Below the pieces are notes generated by a model. It was not told the DNA's origin. It worked only from the letters and a program-made list of their open reading frames with translations, and searched no databases. Below, one piece after another: positions 6,884 to 29,711 of a stretch of 40,281 nucleotides of DNA (within the stretch, counting starts at the first letter, position 1; the number at the start of each line of letters is the position of its first letter). This stretch comes from a virus: IMG/VR virus record IMGVR_UViG_3300048592_000655, positions 1-40,281 of that record; one strand, written 5' to 3'. The position numbers and the translations under genes are program-made.

Positions 6884-7407
6884 CGAGGCGCCCCCTCCTC
6901 ATGCCAGCCGATCAACGCATCGAGCCGGCGCCGGCACTCGTCGTACCGCCCGCCGGCATCGAGCGCCCAGCGGGCGACGTGGGTATCGGTGGCAACGTGT
7001 CCGGCATCCGCTCGAGCAGCGCCGCCGGCGGCGTCGGGCAAATCGGCATCGAGGCCGGGGGCGCCGTCGAGCACCCGCAAAGCAGGCTCGTCCAGGCACA
7101 CACGGCCAGTGGTCGTGCGGGAAATCGCATCGTCTCGCTCCTTGCGCAGCCGCCCCGTTTCACGGGTCGCGGCGGCCAGCTGGCGGCTCAGCGTGTCGCC
7201 GCGCGTCTGCGCAGCCTGCAGGCGCTCGAGCGCCTCGCGGGTCGCCGCCTGTTCGGCCTGCAGGGTGCGCTCGCGCTCGGCAGCGGCCGCGCGTGCGCCG
7301 CTCGCCGCGCCGGCCTGGTAGCTCATCCAGCCCACCACGGTCAGCACCACCAGCAGCGCCGCGCCCATCGCCAAGGCAAGCGCCCCGTCGAAGTACTTGC
7401 CGATCAT
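6880..7407 (-). CDS. Rz-like inner-membrane spanin
   Basis: 175 residues from the ATG at 7405-7407, which overlaps the endolysin stop (ATGA). A single N-terminal membrane segment (about 7-32, ALALAMGAALLVVLTVVGWM) precedes a long periplasmic coiled coil rich in Ala, Glu and Arg, then a Cys-containing tail ending WHEEGAPR. This is the i-spanin layout: with the lipoprotein Rz1 it bridges and fuses the inner and outer membranes in the last step of lysis. A start at 7443 adds residues lying within the endolysin gene and is less likely. An embedded gene in another frame (6912-7130) has the Rz1 features. Confidence 0.85.
   Translation of the reverse strand: MIGKYFDGALALAMGAALLVVLTVVGWMSYQAGAASGARAAAAERERTLQAEQAATREALERLQAAQTRGDTLSRQLAAATRETGRLRKERDDAISRTTTGRVCLDEPALRVLDGAPGLDADLPDAAGGAARADAGHVATDTHVARWALDAGGRYDECRRRLDALIGWHEEGAPR
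6912..7130 (-). CDS. Rz1-like outer-membrane spanin lipoprotein, nested inside Rz
   Basis: 72 residues read in a different frame wholly within Rz. It starts MRFPARPLAVCAW and has a lipobox-like LLCGC around residues 16-20, so Cys20 would be lipidated. A Pro-rich mature part (CSTAPPASMPICPTPPAA...) is typical of Rz1. Nesting of Rz1 in Rz is known from lambda-like phages. The 83-residue reading from 7163 is rejected because its added residues spoil the signal peptide. Confidence 0.78.
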   Translation of the reverse strand: MRFPARPLAVCAWTSLLCGCSTAPPASMPICPTPPAALLERMPDTLPPIPTSPAGRSMPAGGTTSAGAGSMR

Positions 7408-8177
7408 GCCCAGCCCTCGTGCCGCTGCCGGTAGCGATTCCACAGCACCACGGCGCCTACGATCAGCGCCACGGCCGCCACCACCAGCAAAGGATCGATG
7501 CCCAGGCCCGTAGCCACCGCGCGCACATCGGCGGATGTCGCCGAGGCCATCGCAATCGCCCCCGTCGCCATCGACACCGCCCCCGACTGCGCGATCGGGC
7601 TCGCCGCCATGCGCGACTCGGGCTCTGCCGCCGGCATGTCTGCCATCGCACCCGCTGCCGCATCGGGCAGCGCATCCAGCGGCGGGTGATACGAACTGTC
7701 ACGGCTCAGGTACAGCGCCGCCTCGCGCGCACGCCGCGCGGTCAGCCCGCGCACCTCTTCCAGCACACCCCGCACGCGCGCCTTGTTCCACAGCCCGAAG
7801 GCCCGCGCCGCCGCCAGCGCATTGCCGGCGTTGTGGGCGCGCAGCACGCTCGAGCGCGCAAAGCCCGCCAGGCCCACGTTGTAGGCCAGGCTCACCATGG
7901 CCGCGAGCTGGTGCGGCGTCGCAGTGCGGGCCAGCAACGCCTCCACGTGCTGTGCAAACTCGCCCAGCCGGCTGCAAAGCAGCCGATCGGCCTCGTCCTG
8001 GGTCATCACATCGCCGGGGCGAACGTTTTCCGTCTCGCCCCAGCCGATGGTCCACACCCCTGCGATGTCGCGGTACGCCCGCAACCGACAGCCCTCGCTG
8101 CGCGCAACCTCGACCACGCCCGGCCAGATGATCGGCCAGTGCAGTGCACTGTTAGGCAGAATCTCCACGGCGCCCAC
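7404..8177 (-). CDS. Endolysin: T4-type lysozyme (GH24) with C-terminal membrane anchor
   Basis: 257 residues. The lysozyme domain covers about 15-165, with catalytic Glu28, Asp37 and Thr43 in SEGCRLRAYRDIAGVWTIGWGET, the same E-8-D-5-T spacing as T4 lysozyme. It cleaves the MurNAc-GlcNAc bond of peptidoglycan. There is no N-terminal signal. An Ala/Met/Ser-rich linker (about 170-225) leads to one hydrophobic helix (about 229-246, LLVVAAVALIVGAVVLW) and a short basic tail, NRYRQRHEGWA. That anchor is unusual and may replace a separate export step. First gene of the leftward late operon, about 47 bases downstream of a late-motif copy. Confidence 0.92.
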   Translation of the reverse strand: MGAVEILPNSALHWPIIWPGVVEVARSEGCRLRAYRDIAGVWTIGWGETENVRPGDVMTQDEADRLLCSRLGEFAQHVEALLARTATPHQLAAMVSLAYNVGLAGFARSSVLRAHNAGNALAAARAFGLWNKARVRGVLEEVRGLTARRAREAALYLSRDSSYHPPLDALPDAAAGAMADMPAAEPESRMAASPIAQSGAVSMATGAIAMASATSADVRAVATGLGIDPLLVVAAVALIVGAVVLWNRYRQRHEGWA

Positions 8178-8182
8178 CCCCT

Positions 8183-8214
8183 GAAAATGACAACGCCCTC
8201 ATGATCGAGGGCGT
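8183..8214 (-). terminator. Hairpin terminator between the lysogeny-side and late operons
   Basis: ACGCCCTC (8193-8200), loop ATGATC, GAGGGCGT (8207-8214): a perfect 8-bp stem. Read leftward it is followed by TGTCATTTTC, a moderate U-tract. It would stop transcripts from the membrane-protein gene at 8264 before the endolysin. It lies just after the late motif, so late transcripts must start beyond it or read through. Confidence 0.6.
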
Positions 8215-8223
8215 GTGAGGGTG

Positions 8224-8245
8224 GGGCTAAATGAAGAGGTTCAAT
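8224..8245 (-). promoter_or_regulatory. Late-promoter motif, copy 3 (minus strand)
   Basis: Read leftward this is ATTGAACCTCTTCATTTAGC followed by CC, matching the two copies at 22121 and 29108 (consensus AWTGAAnnnCTTCATTTAGC; dyad TGAA-N4-TTCA). It lies 47 bases before the endolysin, the first gene of the leftward late operon. Recurrence before each late operon suggests an activator-binding site; this is inferred. Confidence 0.7.
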
Positions 8246-21296: not shown

Positions 21297-21734
21297 ATGA
21301 GCGCCGCGCCGAGCCGCCTGGCCCGCGCCACGGTCGACGAGCTGGCCCCGCTCGCTGCGCTGCTGGACCCGGCCTACCCGGAGAACTGGGCGCGCATCGC
21401 CGAGCGCCTGTACCTGTCGCTGCGCGACCGCCTGCCTGGTGAGGCCACGGCGCATGCTCACCTCGCGCTCGAGCTGGCCGAAGGGCTGCGCGCCGAGCTC
21501 GGCGGCAGCCAGTTCTATCTGGCCAAGGGCCAGGGCTACGAGCTGAGCCTGCGCGACCGCCAGATCCTGGCGCGCTTCACCGGGCACAACCACCGCGCCC
21601 TGGCGCAGGCCTTCGGGGTGACCGAGCGCCACGTGTACTCCATCGTCGAGCGCCGCGGCCGCGAGGAGTTCGAGCGCCGGCAGGGCAAGCTGCCCGGACT
21701 GGACGCAGGCGGCGTTGCCGAGGGCAGATCGTGA
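21297..21734 (+). CDS. mor: Mor-family transcription activator (middle/late regulator)
   Basis: 145 residues. The conserved half (about 60-130) has GGSQFYLAKGQGYELSLRDRQILARFTGHNHRALAQAFGVTERHVYSIVERRG, with the dimer-forming beta region and C-terminal HTH of Mor/C proteins. Mor activates transcription by binding a dyad upstream of weak -10-type promoters with help from RNA polymerase. In this phage it is the last clearly identified early gene before late operons, so it or its neighbour at 21832 is the best candidate to act on the repeated late motif. Confidence 0.9.
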   Translation: MSAAPSRLARATVDELAPLAALLDPAYPENWARIAERLYLSLRDRLPGEATAHAHLALELAEGLRAELGGSQFYLAKGQGYELSLRDRQILARFTGHNHRALAQAFGVTERHVYSIVERRGREEFERRQGKLPGLDAGGVAEGRS

Positions 21735-21831: not shown

Positions 21832-22125
21832 GTGGCCGCGGTGAAATCGAACGCGGCCGATGCGCCCGACCTCACCGAACTGCTGTCGCTGTTCGCTCGC
21901 CTGCGCCCCGGGGCGCCCGCCAACTGGAGCACCCGCTACCGCATCGGGGTGATCCTGTCGAAGCACCTGGACGCCCACTGCACGCTGGCCGAGCTCGGCC
22001 GCGCGCTCGGGGTGACCCCGCAAAACGCGTACACTGAGTCGGTGCTCGCCCTGGGCACCCTGGTGTGCGCGCTGTATGTGCGCATGCACTTCGGCCGGTA
22101 CCCGCTGCCGGCCGGAAAGCAATGA
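21832..22125 (+). CDS. HTH protein between mor and the capsid operon, possible late activator
   Basis: 97 residues from GTG at 21832, or 94 from GTG at 21841 (AGGGG 9 bases before). The C-terminal half has HTH character (CTLAELGRALGVTPQNAYTESVLALGTLVCALYVRM). Position directly after mor and immediately before the first rightward late motif recalls gene C of Mu, but sequence similarity to C is not evident. DNA binding is likely; role in late control is inferred. Its last bases overlap the late motif at 22121. Confidence 0.65.
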   Translation: MAAVKSNAADAPDLTELLSLFARLRPGAPANWSTRYRIGVILSKHLDAHCTLAELGRALGVTPQNAYTESVLALGTLVCALYVRMHFGRYPLPAGKQ

Positions 22126-22142
22126 AGCGCTTCATTTAGCGC
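22121..22142 (+). promoter_or_regulatory. Late-promoter motif, copy 1
   Basis: AATGAAGCGCTTCATTTAGC followed by GC. The core ATGAAGCGCTTCAT (22122-22135) is a perfect 14-base palindrome. It is 30 bases upstream of the protease/scaffold start and matches copies before the tail and leftward late operons. Probable activator site; inferred. Confidence 0.75.
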
Positions 22143-22172
22143 CCCCATCCCCGCGCGGACACAGTGCGGGGC

Positions 22173-23183
22173 ATGGCTACCGCACAGCTTCCTCCCTCCA
22201 TCGAGATCTTCCGCCCCGGTCGGCACATCGACGACGCGGGCGCGGTGCATGAATTCTCCGACGCCGACGTGGCCGGCATGGTCGAGGCCTACGACCCGGC
22301 CGTGCGCGAAGCGCCGCTCACCGTCGGCCACCCCGCGCACAACCTCCCGGCCTACGGCTGGGTGAAGCGCGTGGCGCGCAACGCCGCCGGCCGCCTGGTC
22401 GTCGATGCGCACCAGGTCGAGCCGCAGTTCGCCGAAATGGTGGCCGCCGGCCGCTTCAAGAAGCGGTCGGCCTCGTTCTACCCCCCGCAGCACCCCAACA
22501 ACCCCAAGCCCGGCCAGTGGTACCTGCGGCACGTCGCCTTTCTGGGCGCGCAGCCGCCGGCCATTGCCGGGCTCAAGGACTTTGCCGACGACGACGCCGG
22601 CACCGTGAGCTTTTCCGAGGGCGAGCCGGGGCCGGCCGCCAATCCACCCCATTCCCCCCACCAGGAGCAATCCATGACGCAGGAAATCAAGGACGCGCAG
22701 GACCGCGCCGCCAAGGCCGAAGCCGACGCCAAGGCCGCCCTCGACGCCAAGACCGCGGCCGAGGCCGAGGCCGCCGCCGCCAAGGCGCAACTGGCGCAGT
22801 TCGCCGAACAGGCGCGCCGCGACCGCCATGCCGGCTTCGTGTCGTTTGCCGACGACCAGGTCAAGGCCGGCCGGCTGCTGCCCAAGGACAAGGACGCCGC
22901 GGTGGCCGTGCTCGAAACCCTGGCCGACGCTCAGCCGGTGAAGTTCGCCGAGGGCGGCGCCACCAAGGAAGTGCCCCCGGCCGAATGGCTCAAGGGCCTG
23001 CTCGCCGCGGCCCAGCCGGTGGTGAGCTTCGGCGAGTTCGCGCCCGGCACCGCCGCGCCCACCGCCGGCAGCGCCCAGGGCCTGTCCGATGCCGAGATCG
23101 ACTCCCGCGCCCGCGCCTACGCCGCGCAGCACAAGGTGAGCTACGCCGAGGCGGTCTCCGCCGTCGCCAGCTTCACCGCCTGA
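22173..23183 (+). CDS. Mu-like prohead protease (gpI) with in-frame scaffold
   Basis: 336 residues. The N-terminal 150 residues contain the Mu protease pattern: FRPGRHIDDAGAVHEFSDADVAGMVEAYDP, APLTVGHPAHNLPAYGWVKRV, FAEMVAAGRFKKRSASFYPP and LRHVAFLGAQPPAIAGL. These suit the I32-type prohead protease, with catalytic Ser in RSASFY and His in TVGHPAHN. The C-terminal half is a coiled coil (about 168-215) plus a helical end used as scaffold. The protein guides capsid assembly and then degrades the scaffold. Start at 22173; a GTG at 22164 is an alternative. Confidence 0.9.
   Translation: MATAQLPPSIEIFRPGRHIDDAGAVHEFSDADVAGMVEAYDPAVREAPLTVGHPAHNLPAYGWVKRVARNAAGRLVVDAHQVEPQFAEMVAAGRFKKRSASFYPPQHPNNPKPGQWYLRHVAFLGAQPPAIAGLKDFADDDAGTVSFSEGEPGPAANPPHSPHQEQSMTQEIKDAQDRAAKAEADAKAALDAKTAAEAEAAAAKAQLAQFAEQARRDRHAGFVSFADDQVKAGRLLPKDKDAAVAVLETLADAQPVKFAEGGATKEVPPAEWLKGLLAAAQPVVSFGEFAPGTAAPTAGSAQGLSDAEIDSRARAYAAQHKVSYAEAVSAVASFTA
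22674..23183 (+). CDS. Internal in-frame scaffold protein (Mu Z-like)
   Basis: An ATG at 22674, in frame with the protease, has AGGAG about 6 bases upstream (CCAGGAGCAATCCATG) and would give a 169-residue product, MTQEIKDAQDRAAKAEADA.... It consists of a coiled coil followed by a helical C-terminus ending VSAVASFTA. In Mu, scaffold Z is made from just such an internal start within protease gene I. The nested start is therefore expected to supply free scaffold in excess over protease. Confidence 0.75.
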   Translation: MTQEIKDAQDRAAKAEADAKAALDAKTAAEAEAAAAKAQLAQFAEQARRDRHAGFVSFADDQVKAGRLLPKDKDAAVAVLETLADAQPVKFAEGGATKEVPPAEWLKGLLAAAQPVVSFGEFAPGTAAPTAGSAQGLSDAEIDSRARAYAAQHKVSYAEAVSAVASFTA

Positions 23184-24944: not shown

Positions 24945-25364
24945 ATGCCCAGCTTCATCTTCAACAGCGCCGTCCGCGACGAAGCGACCGGTGCCATCGA
25001 CTACGACACCGACAACTTCAAGGTCATGCTGCTCACCGCGGCTGCCGCACCCAACAAGGACACCTGGGCCAAGCGCAGCGACGTCACCAACGAAGTCGTC
25101 GGCACCGGTTACACCGCTGGAGGTGCCGCAGTCGTCGTGGCAGTAGGCGCGGTCGACACCGTAAACGACCGTGTCGACATCTCGCTCGGCGGCGCGACGT
25201 GGGCCAACGCCACCATCACCGCCCGCTACGCGGTGTACTACAAGGCGCGCGGCGGCGCGGATACGGCCGACGAGCTGGTGGCGGTGAATGACTTTGGCGC
25301 CGATGTCGCCAGCACTGCGGCCGCCTTTGCGTTGGCGGAATCGACCTACCGCAAGCAGAACTGA
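24945..25364 (+). CDS. Structural protein of unknown role, beta-rich
   Basis: 139 residues, MPSFIFNSAVRDEATGAIDYDTDNFKVMLLTAAAAPNKDTWAKRSDVTNEV, followed by alternating strands (AVVVAVGAVDTVNDRVDISLGGATW). The N-terminal pattern IDYDTDNFKVMLL recurs in phage structural proteins encoded near head or tail genes. A ribosome site (GAGGAG) precedes it. Probably a virion component; position cannot decide head or tail. Confidence 0.7.
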   Translation: MPSFIFNSAVRDEATGAIDYDTDNFKVMLLTAAAAPNKDTWAKRSDVTNEVVGTGYTAGGAAVVVAVGAVDTVNDRVDISLGGATWANATITARYAVYYKARGGADTADELVAVNDFGADVASTAAAFALAESTYRKQN

Positions 25365-25368
25365 CGCC

Positions 25369-25800
25369 ATGGCCGGCGTGCAGTTGGCGCTCTACAAGCC
25401 GCACCGCGCGATGGACATCGGCGGGCGGCTTATTTGTTTTTGGACCCGCAGCCGGTACTCGCACGTCGAGGTGGTCATCGACGGCATCTGCTACTCGTCG
25501 AGCCTCCGAGACGGCGGGGTACGGGCCAAGCGGATCGATCTGACTCCCGGCTGGTGGCGCGTGATCCCCGTCACCTGGCGCGACCCCGAGGCTGCGCTGC
25601 GGATCTGGAGGATCTACGAGGGGGAGCCCTACGGATGGGGCGATCTACTCGTGCAGCACGTCCTGCGCCTGCCTGTCGATGACCCAGGCCTGCTGTGCTC
25701 GGAGTTGTGCGCCCGAATGCTCGGCCTGCCCGAGTCTATGTCTCGAGGCATCACTCCGGGGCAGATCGTGGACTACGTTGAAATGAGGAGCATGAAATGA
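25369..25800 (+). CDS. Permuted NlpC/P60-type (papain-fold) hydrolase
   Basis: 143 residues. The order SRYSHVEVVIDG (His in about 30-41) before LLCSELCARMLGLPE (Cys near 110) is the circularly permuted NlpC/P60/YiiX layout: catalytic His first, Cys later. WWRVIPVTWRDPEAALRIWRIYEGEPYGWGDLL provides the middle of the fold. Such enzymes cleave peptidoglycan peptides or acyl bonds. In tailed phages they can help penetrate the wall, but this copy lies between decoration and connector genes rather than with tail-tip genes. Confidence 0.75.
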   Translation: MAGVQLALYKPHRAMDIGGRLICFWTRSRYSHVEVVIDGICYSSSLRDGGVRAKRIDLTPGWWRVIPVTWRDPEAALRIWRIYEGEPYGWGDLLVQHVLRLPVDDPGLLCSELCARMLGLPESMSRGITPGQIVDYVEMRSMK

Positions 25801-29107: not shown

Positions 29108-29129
29108 AATGAACCCCTTCATTTAGCGC
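29108..29129 (+). promoter_or_regulatory. Late-promoter motif, copy 2
   Basis: AATGAACCCCTTCATTTAGC followed by GC; it differs from copy 1 at only two of 22 positions. It lies in the 233-base gap before the tail genes, 120 bases before the gp37-like start. Apart from this motif and a perfect dyad GCTCGATCGAGC at 29044-29055, the gap holds nothing I recognise. Confidence 0.72.
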
Positions 29130-29249
29130 TCCGGGCGCATGAGGACGAAGATCGCGGCACATCCACTGCCCGCGACCTGCGACCGATCCCATGCTGGCCC
29201 GCGCTCTCTCCCTTCGTTTCACCCCTCCTGCTGCCACGGGTTGCTGCTG

Positions 29250-29711
29250 ATGGCCGCCGAGCCGATCGACTTCATGGCGCTCGAGCCGCTGTTGCTCGAC
29301 CGCCTGCGCGCCGCGCTGCCGGCGCACGTGCATGTGCTGGCGGCGCGCGACCTGGCGGGGCTGACCGAGGGCACCCAGCTCACCCCGGCGGTGCATGTGT
29401 TGTACCGCGACTACCGCCCGGGCCGCGCGCCCGCGAGCGGATGGGAGGAGCTGGATCAGCTGTGGCTCACAGTGATCGCCGTGCGCAACGTGAGCACGCT
29501 GGCCACCAACGAGGCCGTGCGGGCCGATGCAGGCCCGTTGATGGGGGCGGTGATCGGCGCCCTGGGCGGATGGCGGCCGGACCTGCGCGGCTACAAGCCG
29601 CTCAGCCTGGATGGGGCGCCGGCCGCCGGCTATCGCGCGGGGTTCGGCTACTTCCCGCTGGGATGGCGCGCGCCGATGCGAGTGCGTGCGGCCTGCACAG
29701 GAGAGCCGTAA
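29250..29711 (+). CDS. Gp37-like tail terminator
   Basis: 153 residues from the ATG at 29250. MAAEPIDFMALEPLLLDRLRAAL, then VLYRDYRPGRAPASGWEELDQLWLTVIAVRNVS and DLRGYKPLSLDGAP match the Mu gp37 family, whose members cap the tail tube or join tail to head. The frame is open back to 29139, but those residues look random. First gene of the tail operon, about 120 bases after late-motif copy 2. Confidence 0.8.
   Translation: MAAEPIDFMALEPLLLDRLRAALPAHVHVLAARDLAGLTEGTQLTPAVHVLYRDYRPGRAPASGWEELDQLWLTVIAVRNVSTLATNEAVRADAGPLMGAVIGALGGWRPDLRGYKPLSLDGAPAAGYRAGFGYFPLGWRAPMRVRAACTGEP

Follow-up and report, generated by a model that had tools for sequence, protein, structure and literature searches.

What switches on the late genes of a transposable phage when they lie in separate blocks on both strands? 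We addressed this question in a whole virus record of 40,281 bases (here called the window), which belongs to a Mu/B3-like transposable siphophage. Its MuA-like and MuB-like transposition genes, GemA and Mor are followed by head genes and then tail genes, and its minus strand encodes lysozyme, spanin, terminase, and portal. The host is Thauera or a close relative of it, since a protease with 100% identity to that of the phage was found in Thauera phenylacetica B4P; one contig of this strain bears a near-identical prophage. Between the head and tail genes, the open reading frame (ORF) at 25288 to 25800 matched phrog_1128 and carries an enoyl-CoA hydratase-like label that is probably misleading.

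One motif precedes each late gene block

The original prediction held that a motif is present in three copies, each upstream of a late operon. We found AWTGAANNNCTTCATTTAGC with 0 mismatches at exactly the three predicted places in the 40,281-base window: 22121 to 22140 (plus strand), 29108 to 29127 (plus strand), and 8226 to 8245 (minus strand). The gene blocks behind these copies also agreed with the prediction (protease/capsid, tail, and endolysin/packaging). The first opens with the head protease, followed by the major head protein; the second with the tail terminator, followed by the major tail protein; and the third, on the minus strand, runs from lysozyme through spanin and terminase to portal. 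The ORF at 21832 to 22125 ends inside the 22121 copy, so that its stop codon and the motif overlap.

No further copy had been noticed by eye, and none was detected in the window when up to 3 mismatches were allowed; the motif was also absent from 100 out of 100 shuffled sequences. The dyad TGAA-N4-TTCA was confined to the three motif places (0.14 occurrences expected). A position matrix was built from 32 sites in other phages; neither the window nor any near-identical relative contributed to the training set. This matrix ranked the three copies first (scores of 44.7, 36.7, and 34.1), followed by a fourth place at 11.2; the best score in ten random sequences was 13.7. An exact-pattern scan of IMG/VR matched at least 118 stretches of unsorted phage types and was not used as evidence.

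Predicted promoter anatomy at the three sites

The TGAA-N4-TTCA dyad had been proposed as the constant part of the motif. It was constant, and the conserved unit proved to be larger, reaching from the dyad across an asymmetric TTTAG as far as a hexamer 31 nt away. At all three window sites, an nAnnnT hexamer starts exactly 31 nt past the dyad axis (+31), and TTTAGC sits between dyad and hexamer. The unit is asymmetric because TTTAGC occupies the −35 position on one side of the dyad. The predicted elements and the genes behind them are as follows.

22122 to 22135, plus strand: activator dyad ATGAAGC|GCTTCAT of the protease/capsid promoter (7/7 symmetric)
22135 to 22140, plus strand: −35-like TTTAGC of the protease promoter, its first T shared with the dyad (TTTAG conserved in a 34-site count)
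22160 to 22165, plus strand: −10 hexamer CACAGT of the protease promoter, with its start at the conserved spacing of 31 nt from the dyad axis
22173 to 23183, plus strand: head maturation protease, predicted to have a leaderless mRNA (ATG 7 nt past the −10 hexamer; Shine-Dalgarno sequence absent)
29109 to 29122, plus strand: activator dyad ATGAACC|CCTTCAT of the tail promoter, followed by TTTAGC at 29122 to 29127
29147 to 29152, plus strand: −10 hexamer GAAGAT of the tail promoter, predicted transcription start near 29159 to 29160
29250 to 29711, plus strand: tail terminator, first large gene of the tail operon (PF23840 over residues 38 to 183 of the longer ORF from 29139)
8231 to 8244, minus strand: activator dyad TTGAACC|TCTTCAT of the lysis/packaging promoter, followed by TTTAGC at 8231 to 8226
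8201 to 8206, minus strand: −10 hexamer GATCAT of the lysis/packaging promoter, predicted transcription start near 8194
7404 to 8168, minus strand: phage lysozyme, first lysis/packaging gene (start GTG 8168 inferred from sequence)

Because the ORF-list starts at 29139 and 22164 lie upstream of the predicted transcription starts, they are probably too early, and translation probably begins at ATG 29250 and ATG 22173 instead. The predicted leader of the tail operon contains a short ORF (29191 to 29253; MLARALSLRFTPPAATGCC) whose stop codon overlaps the start of the tail terminator (TGATG). It is possibly a leader peptide with translational coupling.

The same promoter occurs in related phages

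We collected related viral records via the protease and added a further test set of 19 new loci from a genome collection. With a scoring that favored a spacing of 31 and an ATG, which makes both fractions somewhat generous, 26 of 29 related records had a protease gene at which nAnnnT follows the dyad at 31 nt and precedes the ATG by 6 to 7 nt, and 15 of the 19 further loci fit with axis spacings of 30 to 32. The misses in the latter set were among the most distant proteases. Among all ORF starts, with the true sites counted in, 4.7% reached the score limit. Since this procedure favored a spacing of 31, the test was repeated on non-protease sites chosen by dyad similarity alone. An nAnnnT hexamer stood at +31 in 13 of these 22 sites, compared with 0 to 1 at other offsets, and the dyad-selected sites in relatives precede endolysin, holin-like, and tail genes.

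The dyads vary among phages (TGAA/TTCA, CTAAA/TTTAG, and TGACG-like) yet are alike within one phage, and many of the −10 hexamers match the consensus poorly. In three relatives (G015, G019, and G021) the protease starts fit poorly and the Mor proteins belong to a different-looking subfamily; the Mor gene lies far from the protease in G015 and G021. Near the lysis genes of four relatives, the dyad is flanked by a +31 nAnnnT hexamer in both directions (oriented coordinates: G020, 6386; G005, 4615; G013, 10163; G014, 9324), and in G020 an ATG follows 6 to 7 nt past the hexamer on both sides. Judging from their layout, such two-sided dyads may be single sites that drive two divergent promoters. 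An additional site was seen behind mor in G014 (22779) and G018 (21290; both in oriented coordinates), before a small MSPTAFDITGRRAILKGLPWSFR-like gene with the leaderless arrangement described below (phrog_1084 in G018).

Comparison with Mu and B3-like phages

In the C-activated Mu promoters Plys (TAGACT) and Pmom (TAAGAT), the −10 hexamer starts 31 nt past the dyad axis, as in the window. At Mu Pm, the Mor dyad is reported to be centered at −43.5 and to span −51 to −36 (PMC4287176); a −10 hexamer at −12 to −7 would again put the distance from the axis at 31 nt. The dyad center of Pm is thus at the position predicted for the window sites, and Mu Mor (1rr7) is the closest solved relative of the window protein. 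Pm is, however, a middle promoter, whereas the Mor-like protein of the window appears to drive late operons directly. Mu late promoters and the window also have in common a Mor/C-family activator and the placement of sites at the lysis, protease/head, and tail operons. They differ in the half-sites (TGAA/TTCA in the window and TTAT/ATAA for Mu C) and in the −10 hexamer (nAnnnT in the window group and TAnnnT in Mu). The TTAT/ATAA half-site is a species-level feature and is not expected of the whole class of Mu-type promoters. The original reading of the sites as late promoters is strongly backed by the conserved geometry, the match to Plys, Pmom, and Pm, and the recurrence at the same kinds of operon.

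The Pseudomonas phages B3 and Fc02 have gene content like that of the window phage and a single annotated Mor homologue beside GemA. In Fc02, three right-arm clusters, lysis/packaging included, are turned on after induction (PMC9936078). A simple spacing scan detected no clearly repeated dyad promoter in B3, D3112, RcapMu, or phiSHP3; by eye, the phiSHP3 protease start (GAACAT ggcggc ATG) is similar. Our literature search found no published late-promoter motif for the B3-like group.

The protease mRNA is predicted to be leaderless

At the protease gene of the window, the hexamer ends 7 nt ahead of ATG 22173, and there is no Shine-Dalgarno sequence. Transcription usually starts 7 to 8 nt past the −10 hexamer, so synthesis of the protease RNA would begin at the A of ATG 22173 or one base before it. 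A Shine-Dalgarno strength of −4 kcal/mol or lower was found at 4% of protease starts, compared with roughly 80% of other genes (P = 3e-12). In the relatives, which are mostly betaproteobacterial prophages, the hexamer-to-ATG distance is 6 to 7 nt at the protease and, in many of them, also at the lysis and tail operons. At 17 non-protease sites, an ATG 6 to 7 nt past the hexamer opens a plausible late gene. The base before the protease ATG was C in 23 of 24 cases (background, 52%).

In the window, neither the tail nor the lysis operon has an ATG 6 to 8 nt past the −10 hexamer. The first large ORF begins 134 nt past the axis in the tail operon and 60 nt past it in the lysis operon, i.e., 97 and 23 nt past the hexamer. 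ATG 29250 of the tail terminator lies about 90 nt into the predicted transcript, and GTG 8168 of the lysozyme is preceded by AGGGGG (8182 to 8177), as in a normal short leader. Both operons would keep short leaders, and within the window a leaderless mRNA is predicted for the protease operon only.

The Mu lys and com/mom transcripts have leaders with Shine-Dalgarno sequences, unlike the window protease, and in a Mu-like Chromohalobacter phage the hexamer before the protease (GATACT) is followed by a normal leader with GGGAGG. Leaderless mRNAs occur in phages and bacteria, lambda cI being one example. The window protease resembles them in having its start codon at the (predicted) 5′ end and no Shine-Dalgarno sequence. 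It differs from them in being the first gene of a structural operon, with an activator-dependent promoter and an arrangement conserved across a phage group.

An inverted repeat (CCCCGC...GCGGGG, 22145 to 22171) flanks the −10 hexamer of the protease promoter and appears as CCGC...GCGG in relatives. Such a repeat was present at about half of the protease promoters and absent at the tail site of the window. If the promoters are of the Mor type but the protease transcript starts farther upstream, this GC-rich repeat could form a 5′-leader hairpin that controls translation. Of 21 protease sites, about half showed more hairpin potential around the hexamer than shuffled sequences did (z averaged −1.4, with several values of −2 or lower). 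Several protease sites lack the hairpin, however, and the position of the hexamer and its distance to the ATG are the same at sites without it; the Shine-Dalgarno sequence is missing either way, and the +31 hexamer stands where Mu Plys and Pmom have their −10. We therefore regard a leader hairpin as unlikely and favor a protease RNA that starts at its start codon.

The Mor/C-family protein is the likely activator

The original prediction had left the choice of activator between a Mor-family protein and the HTH protein encoded at 21832. Our analysis favored the former and rejected the latter as the general binder.

21297 to 21734, plus strand: Mor/C-family activator, the proposed binder (PF08765, E = 6.8e-21; phrog_532, late transcriptional activator)

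The solved structures closest to this protein are 1rr7 (Mu Mor) and 9l0x (Mu C). It is the only Mor/C-family protein of the window, and a Mor-family match over the cutoff was found in 26 of 30 related records, mostly one per relative. Its location, family, and single copy make it the likely activator at the three dyads. Covariation between the dyad and the Mor recognition helix seemed convincing by eye, but it was not significant in Mantel tests (simple Mantel P = 0.08; partial r = 0.02), and the pairing of Mor with the dyad therefore draws on location, family, and single copy. The strongest correlation with the dyad came from Mor residues 20 to 30 before the recognition helix; it was found by window scanning and is a lead only.

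It is very improbable that the HTH ORF at 21832 to 22125 supplies the dyad-binding protein instead of Mor. Although encoded directly upstream of the protease promoter, it had no family match, and tblastn matched it only in G001 and G002, two near-identical records, while the promoter is common in phages without this ORF. The sequence before the protease of G016 resembles a diverged copy of it.

Many DNA-binding proteins typically recognize dyads of this size, and the sites might be repressor operators or sites of DNA transactions (transposition or packaging) that stand at operon starts by chance. The fixed 31-nt spacing to a −10-like hexamer, the presence of TTTAG on one side only, and the known activator geometry leave this reading with very little probability. 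Least probable of all is a host regulator, possible in principle and without support in our data, since the dyads differ among phages while staying similar within a phage, and since three Thauera genomes (3 to 5 Mb), each carrying the window prophage or a related one, had the motif on the prophage contig only, 3 times in each, even with 1 mismatch allowed. The motif is a phage signal and not a host regulon.

A single-activator model of late transcription

We are confident, from sequence comparisons, that the three sites are Mu-type late promoters, almost certainly under the single Mor/C protein, and we predict a leaderless protease mRNA. A Mor/C dimer would bind the 14-bp dyad, whose center lies some 43 bp before the transcription start and which adjoins a weak −35 element (TTTAG), and would recruit sigma-70 RNA polymerase of the host to a −10 hexamer (nAnnnT) that is likewise weak and lies 31 nt past the axis. 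Because the Mor gene lies at the end of the early region, the appearance of Mor would switch on all three late blocks. The sites, their spacing and recurrence, the single Mor gene, and the missing Shine-Dalgarno sequence were observed directly, whereas we infer protein binding, activation, and the actual 5′ ends.

Mu uses a Mor-then-C cascade with two Mor/C proteins, whereas the window encodes a single Mor/C protein and no separate C gene. Given this and the Mu-like geometry, the simplest model would have Mor act directly on the late operons without a C protein. Mu already offers examples of the promoter class; what looks new is the layout with a single activator, together with the leaderless arrangement that the group conserves.

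Implications for B3-like transposable phages

For B3-like transposable prophages of Burkholderiales and Rhodocyclales, the arrangement amounts to an exact and transferable rule (dyad, 31 nt, nAnnnT, 6 to 7 nt, ATG) by which late promoters can be located together with the first late genes. It also corrects start codons and points to a candidate activator. Beyond the window, a broad and mostly betaproteobacterial group of transposable siphophages probably shares the whole scheme, in which a single Mor-family activator serves several late operons and the leading late gene (almost always in the case of the protease, and often in that of endolysin/holin and tail genes) is read from a leaderless mRNA. 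If so, these phages have a built-in translation program for late infection that Mu lacks. Should the leaderless prediction be true, they would also offer a compact natural system for studying leader loss in late structural and lysis operons, and would raise the question of why a virus would drop its ribosome-binding leader late in infection.
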